Below, piece after piece: positions 56,816 to 61,514 of a stretch of 64,000 nt of DNA. The notes below the pieces were generated by a model. That model was not told the origin of the DNA, made no database searches, and worked only from the letters and a program-made list of their open reading frames with translations. The position numbers and the translations under genes are program-made. Position 1 is the first letter of the stretch. Each line of letters starts with the position of its first letter. The stretch is from Flavobacterium araucananum (lineage in GTDB: Bacteria > Bacteroidota > Bacteroidia > Flavobacteriales > Flavobacteriaceae). The DNA lies in the NCBI RefSeq assembly GCF_002222055.1, contig NZ_MUGS01000044.1, positions 1-64,000 of the forward strand, written 5' to 3'.

Positions 56816-56929
56816 CTCTATAAATTTTATAGTACAAAGTTGCGCAACATTCAAACAACACATTTAGCCAAAACTATTATTATCGCAGTCTAATTTTTAT
56901 TTTCAGGAGCAGAAGAAATATTTTCAAAA

Positions 56930-57018
56930 GACCTTTTGTCCCGCTGTCCGCTTTATCTTTTTCTTTTTGCTATCGCTTAAAGAAAAAGGATGCCGCTGCC
57001 ATCGGGGCTAGAGTAGCG
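56930..57018 (-). ncRNA. structured RNA, probably Flavo-1 family, copy 2
   Basis: Read on the minus strand it has CTAGCCCCGATGGCAGCGG, then ATCCTTTTTCTTT pairing with AAAGAAAAAGAT around a small inner stem (AAGCGATAGC region), then AGCGGACAGCGGGACAAAAGG. This is the same order of elements as copy 1 at 2231. It ends about 115 nt before the NmrA-type start codon but upstream of the likely promoter, so its link to that gene is unclear. Confidence 0.65.
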
Positions 57019-57063
57019 GTTTATATTTTTATAAGAACTTTTTTTTCCAAAAGAATCGATGGC

Positions 57064-57097
57064 AAACCTAACAGGTTTTAAAAACCTGTCAGGTTTC
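57064..57097. repeat. palindrome of the AAACCTGACAGGTTT word
   Basis: AAACCTAACAGGTTTT (57064-57079) and AAAACCTGTCAGGTTT (57081-57096) are complementary except for one base, with each arm itself a half-palindrome. It could serve as a terminator for a minus- or plus-strand transcript. Confidence 0.8.
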
Positions 57098-57233
57098 TTT
57101 GTCAACACCCAAATAGAATGATATAAAGCAGTTTAAAACCGTAAAATTAGTGCGCATTGAGATTAAACGATCATTGCGAAGTAATAAAATCAATAAGCAA
57201 TGTAAAAACCTTACAAGATACAGCGGTTTTTGG

Positions 57234-57241
57234 TATCTTCG
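57234..57241 (+). promoter_or_regulatory. candidate promoter element of the leader RNA
   Basis: TATCTTCGCA differs from TAnnTTTGCA by one base and lies 40 nt before the leader hairpin. No -33 TTTG is seen at the expected distance. Confidence 0.35.
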
Positions 57242-57280
57242 CAGTCCTAAACGTTAAACCATGATATTAAAAAAACTTTA

Positions 57281-57364
57281 GCCCGTGTGATATGGTGATG
57301 GTATTGGAAACAACCGCAACGCTCTTGCAGCGTAGGACACCTAAACCATGCGGGCTTTTTTTTT
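57281..57364 (+). promoter_or_regulatory. orphan attenuator-like leader with terminator
   Basis: GCCCG (57281-57285) pairs with CGGGC (57351-57355), extended inward by ATGGT / ACCAT, and is followed by nine T (57356-57364). Inside are two smaller hairpins: TTG-GAAA-CAA and ACGCT/AGCGT. A 24-codon frame with clustered Thr codons runs through it. This is the layout of an amino-acid operon attenuator, but the next plus-strand gene, an M14 peptidase, lies 1.6 kb away and two minus-strand genes intervene. Confidence 0.6.
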
Positions 57365-57366
57365 AA
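57292..57366 (+). CDS. putative Thr-rich leader peptide, 24 aa
   Basis: The frame starts MVMVLETTAT and ends TPKPCGLFF. It holds four Thr codons, three of them within ACA ACC GCA ACG, plus several Val, Met and Leu codons. The frame ends inside the T-run, so the terminator itself is part of it. I recall similar RRTPKPCG-type leader endings in front of threonine genes in Bacteroidota, but cannot check this here. Translation is not shown. Confidence 0.45.
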   Translation: MVMVLETTATLLQRRTPKPCGLFF

Positions 57367-57380
57367 GAACATTATAATTT

Positions 57381-57607
57381 ATTAACCCGTTGGGTATAAT
57401 TAATTTTAACACATAGAAACATAGCTTTTGGATCTATAAAAAAGGCGTTTCACTTGTTTAAAATGCACATAGCCTAGCTATGTGAAAGAAATGTATTTCT
57501 TTTTGCATTCCTTTTGACTAAAAAAAGCTATGTTTCTATGTGTTAAATATATATTTTTTGACCCAAGCGAAGCAAACAGACGAAGTAATTACACCCAACG
57601 GGTTAAT
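57381..57607. repeat. 227-bp nested palindrome
   Basis: The outer arms are ATTAACCCGTTGGGT (57381-57395) and its exact complement (57593-57607). The middle arms are exact complements over 25 bp: 57405-57429 (starts TTTAACACATAG) and 57523-57547. A core hairpin CACATAGC-CTA-GCTATGTG lies at 57466-57484. The three levels sit within one another, which would allow a large cruciform or RNA hairpin. Confidence 0.92.
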
Positions 57608-57634
57608 TTATTAAAATCAATTAAAAGAGAAATT

Positions 57635-57976
57635 TTACGTTTTTATCAAATCCATTCTGCTTATTTTTTGATCCTTTATTTCAAAAATAACTACTTGTTC
57701 TTTTTTTTCAGGACTTCCGTTTCGACCCGAAACATATTCATGAACTATTGCTTTATTATCAAAAAAGATGGTTTTTATAATTCCGGCATTCAAATCAGGA
57801 GATTGCTCAAAAAGGTTGCGAAACATTTCTTCACATTCTTTATAGCCATTAATTGCGAGTGTATTTTCGGGAAAACTGTATATTTTAATAGGCTCAGTAT
57901 ACAAAGACATCATACTTTTTAGGTCTCTGGTATTAAAAGCTAACATTTGCAAATCGATAATTTCTTCTATATTCAT
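57635..57976 (-). CDS. SnoaL-like / NTF2-fold protein
   Basis: The 113-aa protein has the N-terminal helix and cone pattern of the fold: IIDLQMLAFNTRDLKSMMSLYTEPIKIY, EMFRNLFEQSP and a C-terminal VVIFEIKDQKISRMDLI. It is a steroid-isomerase-like small protein; substrate unknown. It starts 18 nt after the stop of the membrane-protein gene upstream on the same strand. Confidence 0.82.
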   Translation of the reverse strand: MNIEEIIDLQMLAFNTRDLKSMMSLYTEPIKIYSFPENTLAINGYKECEEMFRNLFEQSPDLNAGIIKTIFFDNKAIVHEYVSGRNGSPEKKEQVVIFEIKDQKISRMDLIKT

Positions 57977-57994
57977 TTTATATTCAAATTCGTT

Positions 57995-59006: not shown

Positions 59007-61514
59007 ATGAAGAAAACATTTCTCGCGACAGTATTGCTGTTAACCGTTTCTTTTTCGGGTTTTGCACAACTAAAAACACCATCAGAATTTATTCCCAATT
59101 ACGGAAAACAAATTAGCTATTATCATCAGGTCGAAGATTATTTTAATTATCTGACGGAACAATCGCAATCCATCAAAAAACAAAAATACGGAGCAACAAA
59201 CGAGCAACGGGATCTTAATGTTTACTATATCTCTACGCCTGAAAATCTGGCAAATCTGGAACAAATCAGGAATAATAATTTGGCCGCAATTGGACTATCT
59301 GATAAAAAAAATCCGGCAGTCGAAGATAAAATTATTGTTTGGCTAAGTTTTAATGTACACGGAAATGAATTTGCAGGAACCGAAAGCGCGCTAACGGTTG
59401 CTTACGAACTTTTGAATCCGTCGAATGAAGCGGCAAAAGAATGGCTAAAAAATACAATCGTAATTCTGGATCCTTGCATAAATCCTGATGGATACTCTAG
59501 ATACGGGAATTGGTTAAGAGAAATCTCGGGCAAAAAAACACATCCGGGATTGTATGATCGCGAGCACATGGAAGTCTGGCCGGGCGGGAGATACAATCAT
59601 TACCTTTTTGACCTGAACAGGGATTGGGCGTGGCAAACGCAAATAGAATCGCAACAACGCATAAAATTGTACAATCAATGGATGCCGCAGGTACATACAG
59701 ATGTGCATGAAATGAGCTATAATTCTCCTTACTTTTTTCCGCCCGCAGCAGAACCTTTGCATGAGTTTATAGAACAATACCAAAAAGATTTTTATAATGT
59801 TTTGGGTAAAAATATCTCTCAAAAATTCGACAAACAAAACTGGACATACACGACTCGCGAACGATTTGATTTATTTTATCCCAGTTATGGCGATACATAT
59901 CCTACCTACAACGGTGCAGTGGGCTTAACGCTGGAGCAGGGCGGGATAGGAGCCGGGCGCGAAGTTACGATGGAAAACGGTGCAAATGTTACCATAAAAG
60001 ATCGATTGACACATCATGCAACTGCAGTTCTGACGGTGGTCGAAAGTGCCGCTTCGCAAAAAGACGTTTTGATAAAAGGTTTCAGGGATTTTCATACCAA
60101 TGCCAGAAAAAAAGCAAAAGGGGTTTATAATACTTATGTCCTGAAAAGCAATCCTAAAATAGAACAACTGACAGCGTTATTGAAGAAAAATGATATTGAA
60201 TTTGCTTATGCAGATGCTTCTGCAAATGAATCGGGTTTTCATTATCAAAGCAAGAAAAACGAAAGTTTTAAGATAGATCCCAACGATTTGATCATAAAAG
60301 CAGATCAGCCAAGATCTGTTCTGGCTCAGGTTTTGTTTGAACCCAATCAAAAATTAAATGATAGTTTATCGTATGATATTACAGCCTGGGCTTTGCCTCT
60401 GGCGTATGGTATCGAAGGTTATGCGGTAAAAAATAATCTTGTGATAAAAACGAAAACCAAAATCGAAGTACCGGAAAAAAATATTCCGGCAAGTGTTTAT
60501 GCTTTTTATGTACCCTGGAATAACAGGGTTTCGGCTCAGGTAGTTTCCCTATTGCATCAGGCAGGAATAAAAGTGAGATCGGCAATGAAAAAAGCAGTTT
60601 TTGGTACCGTTTCCATCGAACCAGGCGGCTTGATTATAAGCAGGGCCGATAATCCTAAAATTGCTGATTTTGAAAAAACAGTAAGCGATATCATCAAGAT
60701 CAAAACCGATTATAGTTTTATAACCACTGGTTTTTCGACCAATTCTAAAGATATTGGCGGGGAGAATTTTGTACTTCTAAAAGCGCCAAAAATTTTAATG
60801 TTGTCCGGCAAAGGAGTGGTTTCTACAGAGTTTGGTGCGACGTGGTTTTATCTGGACGAAACAATTGGTTATCCGGTAAGTATTGTCGAGACGGCTAATT
60901 TTGGTCGTGTCAAATTGTACAACTACAATACGTTGATTCTCTCAGAGGGACAGTATGATTTTGCCGATGATCAGAAAAAACAAATCGATGAATGGGTAAA
61001 AAATGGCGGAAAAGTAATTGCAATGAGCAGTGCTATTTCGCTGTTTCAGGATCGCGAAGGGTATGCTTTGAGTTTATTTGCAAGTAAGGAGGACAAAGAA
61101 AAAGCAGAGAAAGAGGACAAAGAGACCGAACTTAAAAAACGCTTTCTGGATTTTGAAGGTTCAGAGCGAAGAGGGATTTCAGGCTCTATTCCGGGTGCGA
61201 TAATCGAGAATAAATTAGATAAAACCTATCCTATGGCTTTTGGGTTGGGTAATACTTATTTTAGCCTTAAAAGCAACGAAAGATCATTTTCGCTACTTAA
61301 AAATGCCATAAATGTAGCTTATATTCCTAAAGGATATTTAAGTTATGGTTTTGTGGGTAACGATATCAGGAAAAAACTAAACGAAACGGTGAGTTTTGCC
61401 GTCGATAAAAAAGGCGACGGAACGGTAATTTATATGATGGATAATCCGCTTTTTAGAGGTTTCTGGGAAAACGGAATTCTGCTATTCAGTAATTCGCTGT
61501 TTTTAGTCAATTAG
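59007..61514 (+). CDS. secreted M14-family zinc carboxypeptidase
   Basis: The 835-aa protein has a signal peptide ending FSGFAQ and an M14 domain (about 30-350). The zinc motif HxxE is seen as H118 and E121 in NVHGNE, and the third histidine is H230 or H234 in VHTDVHEM. The remaining 480 residues have no clear known module; GGKVIAMSSAISLFQ near 670 suggests a glutamine-amidotransferase-like fold. No T9SS signal is seen, so it is probably periplasmic or outer-membrane associated. It is much longer than classic carboxypeptidases. Confidence 0.88.
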   Translation: MKKTFLATVLLLTVSFSGFAQLKTPSEFIPNYGKQISYYHQVEDYFNYLTEQSQSIKKQKYGATNEQRDLNVYYISTPENLANLEQIRNNNLAAIGLSDKKNPAVEDKIIVWLSFNVHGNEFAGTESALTVAYELLNPSNEAAKEWLKNTIVILDPCINPDGYSRYGNWLREISGKKTHPGLYDREHMEVWPGGRYNHYLFDLNRDWAWQTQIESQQRIKLYNQWMPQVHTDVHEMSYNSPYFFPPAAEPLHEFIEQYQKDFYNVLGKNISQKFDKQNWTYTTRERFDLFYPSYGDTYPTYNGAVGLTLEQGGIGAGREVTMENGANVTIKDRLTHHATAVLTVVESAASQKDVLIKGFRDFHTNARKKAKGVYNTYVLKSNPKIEQLTALLKKNDIEFAYADASANESGFHYQSKKNESFKIDPNDLIIKADQPRSVLAQVLFEPNQKLNDSLSYDITAWALPLAYGIEGYAVKNNLVIKTKTKIEVPEKNIPASVYAFYVPWNNRVSAQVVSLLHQAGIKVRSAMKKAVFGTVSIEPGGLIISRADNPKIADFEKTVSDIIKIKTDYSFITTGFSTNSKDIGGENFVLLKAPKILMLSGKGVVSTEFGATWFYLDETIGYPVSIVETANFGRVKLYNYNTLILSEGQYDFADDQKKQIDEWVKNGGKVIAMSSAISLFQDREGYALSLFASKEDKEKAEKEDKETELKKRFLDFEGSERRGISGSIPGAIIENKLDKTYPMAFGLGNTYFSLKSNERSFSLLKNAINVAYIPKGYLSYGFVGNDIRKKLNETVSFAVDKKGDGTVIYMMDNPLFRGFWENGILLFSNSLFLVN

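Follow-up and report, generated by a model that had tools for sequence, protein, structure and literature searches.

A c4-2 RNA of Flavobacterium araucananum as a Probable Orphan of a C4-Type Antisense Module Family

Introduction

What is the role of a short genetic unit in which a promoter-like word, a small reading frame, a base-paired stem and a run of T follow one another with no evident operon behind them? This question is raised by positions 57234-57366 of a 64,000-nucleotide stretch of Flavobacterium araucananum DNA (contig NZ_MUGS01000044.1, positions 1 to 64,000), the whole of which is called the window here. A sequence-only reading had taken the unit for a threonine- or branched-chain-type attenuator that was cut off from its operon or had become a stand-alone small RNA. 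Here, we present the analysis of this locus and its homologues, and propose with a probability of about 0.8 that the element is an orphan copy of a C4-type antisense RNA gene and not an amino-acid attenuator.

The RNA family concerned, c4-2, is already known and named. It reportedly goes back to Weinberg in 2017, and as the repeat layout described below may already be found there, we do not claim that this layout is unpublished. The literature searched yielded no function for c4-2, and the Rfam 15 paper lists the family (RF02944) in a table row. C4-type control is established for phage P1, whose annotation lists a1, b1, a C4 RNA of 77 nt, a2 and b2, followed by icd (73 aa) and ant1. RNase P is reported to release C4 from a longer transcript, and in the mature RNA the b' loop partially masks ribosome-binding sites and the a' loop confers specificity (PMC5320573); silencing together with RNase P processing is described for P1 C4 (PMC5320573, PMC8198154), and Icd is described as an inhibitor of cell division (PMC8198154).

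A c4-2 RNA in the Place of an Attenuator

An Rfam scan of the window placed a c4-2 RNA core with stems P1, P2 and P3 at 57281-57357 of the plus strand (64.6 bits, E = 4.2e-12 for the window; gathering cut-off 41 bits). The match is full length (model positions 1-79 of 79), and RF02944 is the sole Rfam family reported for this interval by a scan that retains only the best of overlapping clan members, RF01695 included. The three-stem fold is backed by covariation among homologues: in an alignment of 20 chosen c4-2 copies, 17 of the 26 predicted pairs show compensatory changes on both sides with the pair kept. Two of the 26 consensus pairs are broken in the window copy (columns 11-74 and 19-38, both A-C). 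The fold energy of the element is ordinary compared with shuffled sequences (z = -0.90), so the evidence for the element is the covariance match and not the energy of its hairpin. Membership in the c4-2 family is virtually certain. Like the C4 RNA of P1 and P7 (RF01695) and its c4-a1b1 target (RF03163), the family belongs to Rfam clan CL00128, as shown on phage P1, and forms a three-stem RNA of about 77 nt; its sequence differs from that of P1/P7 C4.

The individual parts named by the sequence-only reading are all present, namely the promoter-like word TATCTTCG (57234-57241), a 24-codon ATG frame (57292-57366, plus strand; MVMVLETTAT...) and the closing stem GCCCG.../...CGGGC with nine T (57356-57364), and the order of short frame, hairpin and T-run, with Thr codons clustered in the frame, does resemble an attenuator that was severed from a threonine or branched-chain operon. 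However, the hallmarks of an amino-acid operon attenuator are a conserved leader peptide in which the regulated amino acid is abundant and, behind it, the biosynthetic operon; the element has an unconserved frame and no long plus-strand ORF directly behind it. Of 109 c4-2 copies, 100 have an ATG at the corresponding position, but the frames that it opens vary from 1 to 111 codons, 72 of the 100 ending after 11-15 codons. The start that they commonly share, M(V/L)AVLETTAT, is a one-frame translation of the P2 hairpin. The frame is therefore judged non-coding, as it is unconserved in the 109 copies; from the sequences compared, it is a shadow of P2 to which the Thr codons belong, rather than a conserved coding feature. 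What relatives conserve is the stem, which had been expected to be kept together with the frame, as part of a c4-2 three-way junction with compensatory changes, and the next gene in 100 of 109 copies is a small ORF. We reject the thr/ilv attenuator on the frame test in 109 copies and the RF02944 match, and grant it almost no probability. The remark that no operon follows holds insofar as no long plus-strand ORF stands directly behind the RNA, the next one in the ORF list being 835 aa at 59007; the missing piece is the small ORF. Similarly, a regulatory-type RNA without its usual gene, possibly a stand-alone small RNA, is what remains of the proposed cut-off leader, without the link to amino acids.

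Distribution of c4-2 RNAs and Their Small ORF

A second copy elsewhere in the genome had been suggested as worth looking for, and a whole-genome Rfam scan gave eight c4-2 matches, seven above cut-off. With the source genome counted each time, the family occurs in 6 of 60 relatives, all of the same genus. A survey of 398 genomes of this genus gave 73 with a match, of which 70 were above cut-off, and a sample of the phylum with 395 genomes gave 11, of which 10 were above cut-off. The 109 copies examined derive from 107 loci plus two second copies; since they are mostly the best-scoring ones, orphans may be under-counted among them.

In 100 of the 109 copies, an ORF of at least 55 codons, classed by length only, has its start in the interval from 10 nt upstream to 60 nt downstream of the RNA end. 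The nine copies without it are L004, L006 (the window copy), L022, L059b, L083b, L089, L095, L104 and L107. The commonest kind encodes 77 aa, a simple motif of which recurs in 85 of the 100 ORFs; other c4-2 copies precede ORFs of little visible similarity, and in L044 the longest frame is not the ORF of the family. A median dN/dS of 0.22 (2283 pairs of 70 ORFs of 77 codons, with identical and saturated pairs dropped) is the basis on which we regard the 77-aa ORF as being under purifying selection. Among 304 named matches for the associated ORF, the best 80 are from Flavobacterium or close kin. No known family was found for the 77-aa product, given that Pfam matches were below cut-offs and that NCBIfam and PHROGs gave none (chromosomal proteins). 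Its AlphaFold model (pLDDT 81) has three helices and no Foldseek match in PDB at E <= 0.001, and one 77-aa query had no tblastn match at E <= 0.01 in phage and plasmid collections. One locus of the source genome (L113, 1501-1734) contains a resident 77-aa ORF of the module family and no c4-2 match in the locus as fetched.

Guides and Target Words Change Together

In complete modules the loop of P3 (a') is complementary to a variable word of 7-8 nt that is present twice, once in the 5' leader (V1) and once at the start of the ORF (V2). Coupling was assessed on 47 distinct a' segments, leaving out five subfamily-B copies that lack the b' element. The match of a loop with its own V1 has a mean of 7.30 nt, compared with a permuted mean of 4.82 nt (highest of 20,000 permutations, 5.51), and for the own V2 the corresponding values are 7.02 and 4.64 nt (highest of 20,000, 5.26). 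Own matches of at least 6 nt are found for 44 of 47 loops at V1 and 43 of 47 at V2, as opposed to 20% and 17% of mismatched pairs; the three to four loops that stay below 6 nt on one side include that of the window copy. With all 109 copies and a wider loop segment, the means are 7.42 nt (V1) and 7.06 nt (V2) vs permuted means of 5.66 and 5.15 nt.

A second complementarity links the UAGGA element (b'), on the 3' side of P3, with a UCCUA box that precedes the word. Of the 91 copies with TAGGA, 80 have TCCTA within the 75 nt leading up to the RNA, and in several of the 13 non-TAGGA copies the b' box covaries with its target, for example TAAGA with TCTTA and TAGAG with CTCTA; one copy (L091) has b' = CAGGA without a matching box. 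Predicted duplex energies follow the same partition, with means of -14.2 kcal/mol for cognate and -8.4 kcal/mol for non-cognate pairs (n = 44). For 41 of the 44 V2 sites the cognate RNA ranks among the best five, and for 17 it is the best. Within the source genome, it is the best partner for six of the seven V2 sites that have a cognate RNA, the exception being a subfamily-B copy (L008). The fit between guide and words that marks a C4-type antisense module is found in the family at large and not in the window copy.

From the sequences alone the fit of guide and words in complete modules is clear; co-transcription and silencing are proposed by analogy with C4 of phage P1. One promoter would drive a transcript made up of the leader (b1-a1), the c4-2 RNA and then b2-a2 at the start of the small ORF, where a' and b' would pair with the word and the UCCUA box, and translation of the small protein would be blocked. 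Flavobacterium mRNAs are reported to be without Shine-Dalgarno sequences, initiation being governed by local structure and by the nucleotides that precede the start codon (PMC6847099), and for this reason a block of translation by pairing at V2 is plausible. We consider that the c4-2 family very probably acts as a C4-like antisense RNA. It would thereby gain a mechanism with strong sequence support, tied to phage antirepressor control, and the chromosomal modules, which retain the RNA and a conserved small protein as the guide changes together with two target words, provide a natural set of separately matched antisense pairs.

Relation to Phage C4 and Antirepressors

As in the c4/icd/ant layout of P1, c4-2 modules have target words both before the RNA and before a small ORF. 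In contrast to P1, where the operon runs into ant1/ant2, a single small ORF follows c4-2 in the copies examined, and in the window copy none. Many chromosomal C4-type RNAs per genome that differ in a' are also reported for the Group 1 C4-like sRNAs of Acinetobacter baumannii; unlike c4-2, these are C4 proper from another phylum, with expression shown by RNA-seq (PMC5320573).

Relatives of the 77-aa protein are encoded on two IMG/VR contigs (L235 and L236), in both cases behind an antirepressor-like ORF. This ORF contains Bro-N at 2.3e-25 in L236 and below cut-off in L235, and its PHROGs matches include anti-repressor families (6.8e-47 in L236, 2.5e-5 in L235). Directly upstream of the Bro-N antirepressor of L236 lies a c4-2 match of 28.2 bits, which is below cut-off. 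Positions 2170-2340 of L235, which match no Rfam model at E <= 0.1, show a C4-like layout with a word-guide-word triple of 11-12 nt before the antirepressor-like ORF, and L348 is similar. The triple is present in 17 of 22 near relatives of the L235 and L236 antirepressors (L267-L281, L347-L353), or in 13 of 18 after collapsing five that are identical over 210 bases (L268-L272), compared to 2 and 1 of 22 in controls. More distant antirepressors have it in 2 of 65 cases (controls 4 and 0), the division into near and more distant having been set after a first look at the data. On P1 itself the triple detector gives an overlap of 0, and another script finds GTTAGTGA/GTTAGTG there. An exact c4-2 pattern had no match in viral contigs, and no viral relative of a subfamily-B ORF was found. 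Taken by analogy, the chromosomal c4-2 modules look like phage immunity operons reduced to an RNA and a small protein.

The Window Copy and Its Surroundings

The window copy retains much of this layout, all on the plus strand. The word TATCTTCG at 57234-57241 fits TAnnTT(T/C)(G/A), which we take to be the Bacteroidota -7 promoter consensus, with a predicted transcription start at about 57243-57246; in 89 of the 109 c4-2 copies, a word of this pattern lies upstream of the box at a distance of no more than 16 nt. It is followed by a b1-like UCCUA box (57245-57249), complementary to the UAGGA b' element at 57333-57337, and by an a1-like word V1 (57251-57258) of the ACGTTAAA type. The guide loop of P3, UCUUGCA (57323-57329), is the complement of TGCAAGA and is identical in L063, L065 and L086, whose V1 and V2 contain TGCAAGA. 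V1 of the window copy is of the CGTTAAA type, as in L040 and L094, and misfits its own loop. Unlike the 100 of 109 copies with an ORF, the window copy lacks both the ORF and the second target word, and a search with the 77-aa protein in the source genome gave no homologue on the contig of the window at E <= 1. The T9 run after P1 (57356-57364), a predicted intrinsic terminator, is the longest among the 109 copies, 80 of which have a longest run of 4 T. With promoter, RNA core and b' kept, T9 would end transcription just after the RNA, and the copy, if transcribed, would yield a short free antisense RNA with the guide UCUUGCA, for which no cognate module was found in the genome.

Homology to other c4-2 modules stops near 57364, adjoining a palindromic multi-copy repeat at 57382-57607, the outer limits of which are approximate. 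For this repeat, scoring of 40 of 190 candidates gave 50 match rows in the genome, a figure that counts the query and self-complementary matches. Compared with relatives, about 1.1 kb of the window (56894-57994) lies between aligned blocks, where the gap is 79 (L124), 43 (L126) and 644 (L125) positions; the stretch contains a Flavo-1 RNA, the c4-2 RNA, the palindromic repeat and a 113-aa ORF. Since the stretch is longer in the window, and since the 29 loci of relatives fetched around the neighbouring gene showed no c4-2-like core in a simple pattern search, the c4-2 RNA probably sits in inserted or rearranged DNA.

The core of the window copy is closest to L035 (0.910), the two loops being one T apart, and L063 and L065 follow closely (0.896). 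The TGCAAGA modules of relatives lie in a region that is syntenic with the L003 module of the source genome, where the word varies: three genomes have TGCAAGA, two have CTTTCAGA, one has CGTTAAA and the source genome has TTCGAGA. The window copy, with a guide that fits TGCAAGA modules and a leader word of another type, most likely derives from a module through recombination between paralogues, with loss of the ORF beside the multi-copy repeat.

Two Flavo-1 RNAs (RF01705) are found in the window, at 2236-2317 of the plus strand (76.5 bits) and at 56933-57013 of the minus strand (71.9 bits). One of them is about 270 bases from the c4-2 orphan, and a Flavo-1 RNA is also contained in L017. A short palindrome of the AACAGGTTTT/AAAACCTGTC type at window 57066-57096 has sub-threshold microRNA matches.

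Relic or Working RNA

We lean towards the view that the window copy is a relic that no longer regulates rather than a working orphan. If it had a target in trans in a c4-2 module or some other gene of the same genome, the retained promoter-like word, fold and T-run would have an explanation, and the best resident duplex, with V2 of L002, reaches -11.2 kcal/mol. The RNA that belongs to this V2, however, reaches -17.2 kcal/mol, TGCAAGA is in no resident module found (best resident match 5 nt), and L113, the resident ORF that lacks a c4-2 match, carries a different word (-3.1 kcal/mol). Sites of the form CCTA-N0-10-TGCAAG are not enriched in the genome (56 vs 60 in a reversed control); among the 20 that were fetched out of 56, six have an ATG within 25 nt, and one of these six opens a frame of more than 60 codons (L248, 131 codons). 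With no matching module and no enriched site, a working trans target in the source genome was rejected, and action on a resident gene is very unlikely.

A less remote but still unlikely role is immunity, in which the orphan would be retained against incoming modules or phages that carry a matching word at the start of an ORF or antirepressor, in line with the immunity or new host targets proposed for stray C4 RNAs in Acinetobacter (PMC5320573). With the V2 of modules from related genomes, the guide of the window copy has a 7-nt match (-16.9 kcal/mol). For a wider comparison, 42 copies of seven genomes comprised 26 complete modules, 15 incomplete ones and one truncated module left unclassed (G000 C85:300527); G281, with eight copies, was left out of this in-genome test. 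Ten of the 15 were kept as strict orphans (6 genomes), after exclusion of two with an ORF (G587 C7:192520, G298 C3:598362), two with a V2 match (G298 C3:598549 and C5:1813371) and an ambiguous one (G181 C11:576468). For nine of the ten, a module in another genome gives a match of no less than 7 nt; for eight, the best match to a resident module does not exceed 5 nt. Relics of replaced modules, however, predict nearly the same matches, and the avoidance of resident modules is suggestive at most, being not significant against random sets of the same size (0.079) in a test to which two genomes contributed just one complete resident module each. One orthologous orphan pair is identical at 6 of 10 loop positions vs 385 of 390 outside the loop (p = 2.4e-5), but a second pair shows no significant loop excess (6/9 vs 155/185, p = 0.18), so that faster turnover of orphan loops than of their scaffold is significant in one of the two pairs tested. 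The two broken consensus pairs also speak against a working window copy.

More speculative still, and quite improbable on the present evidence, is the extension of this idea to a dispersed, hypervariable self/non-self system of Flavobacterium, in which orphans act as antisense immunity and guides turn over faster than their scaffold. If this were true, no guide but its own would silence a given c4-2/small-ORF module, species would carry alleles of different specificity in the same syntenic region, and cells would keep orphan c4-2 RNAs against modules or antirepressor phages that they lack. Whether relics or not, the orphan copies can be used to ask directly if stray C4-type RNAs shield cells against foreign modules, and what had been read as an orphan attenuator becomes a concrete and testable antisense RNA.

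Tandem c4-2 RNAs, 100-168 bases apart, occur at four loci (L357, L361, L369 and L370). No ORF follows in L357 and L361, and in L369 and L370 one ORF stands after the second RNA.
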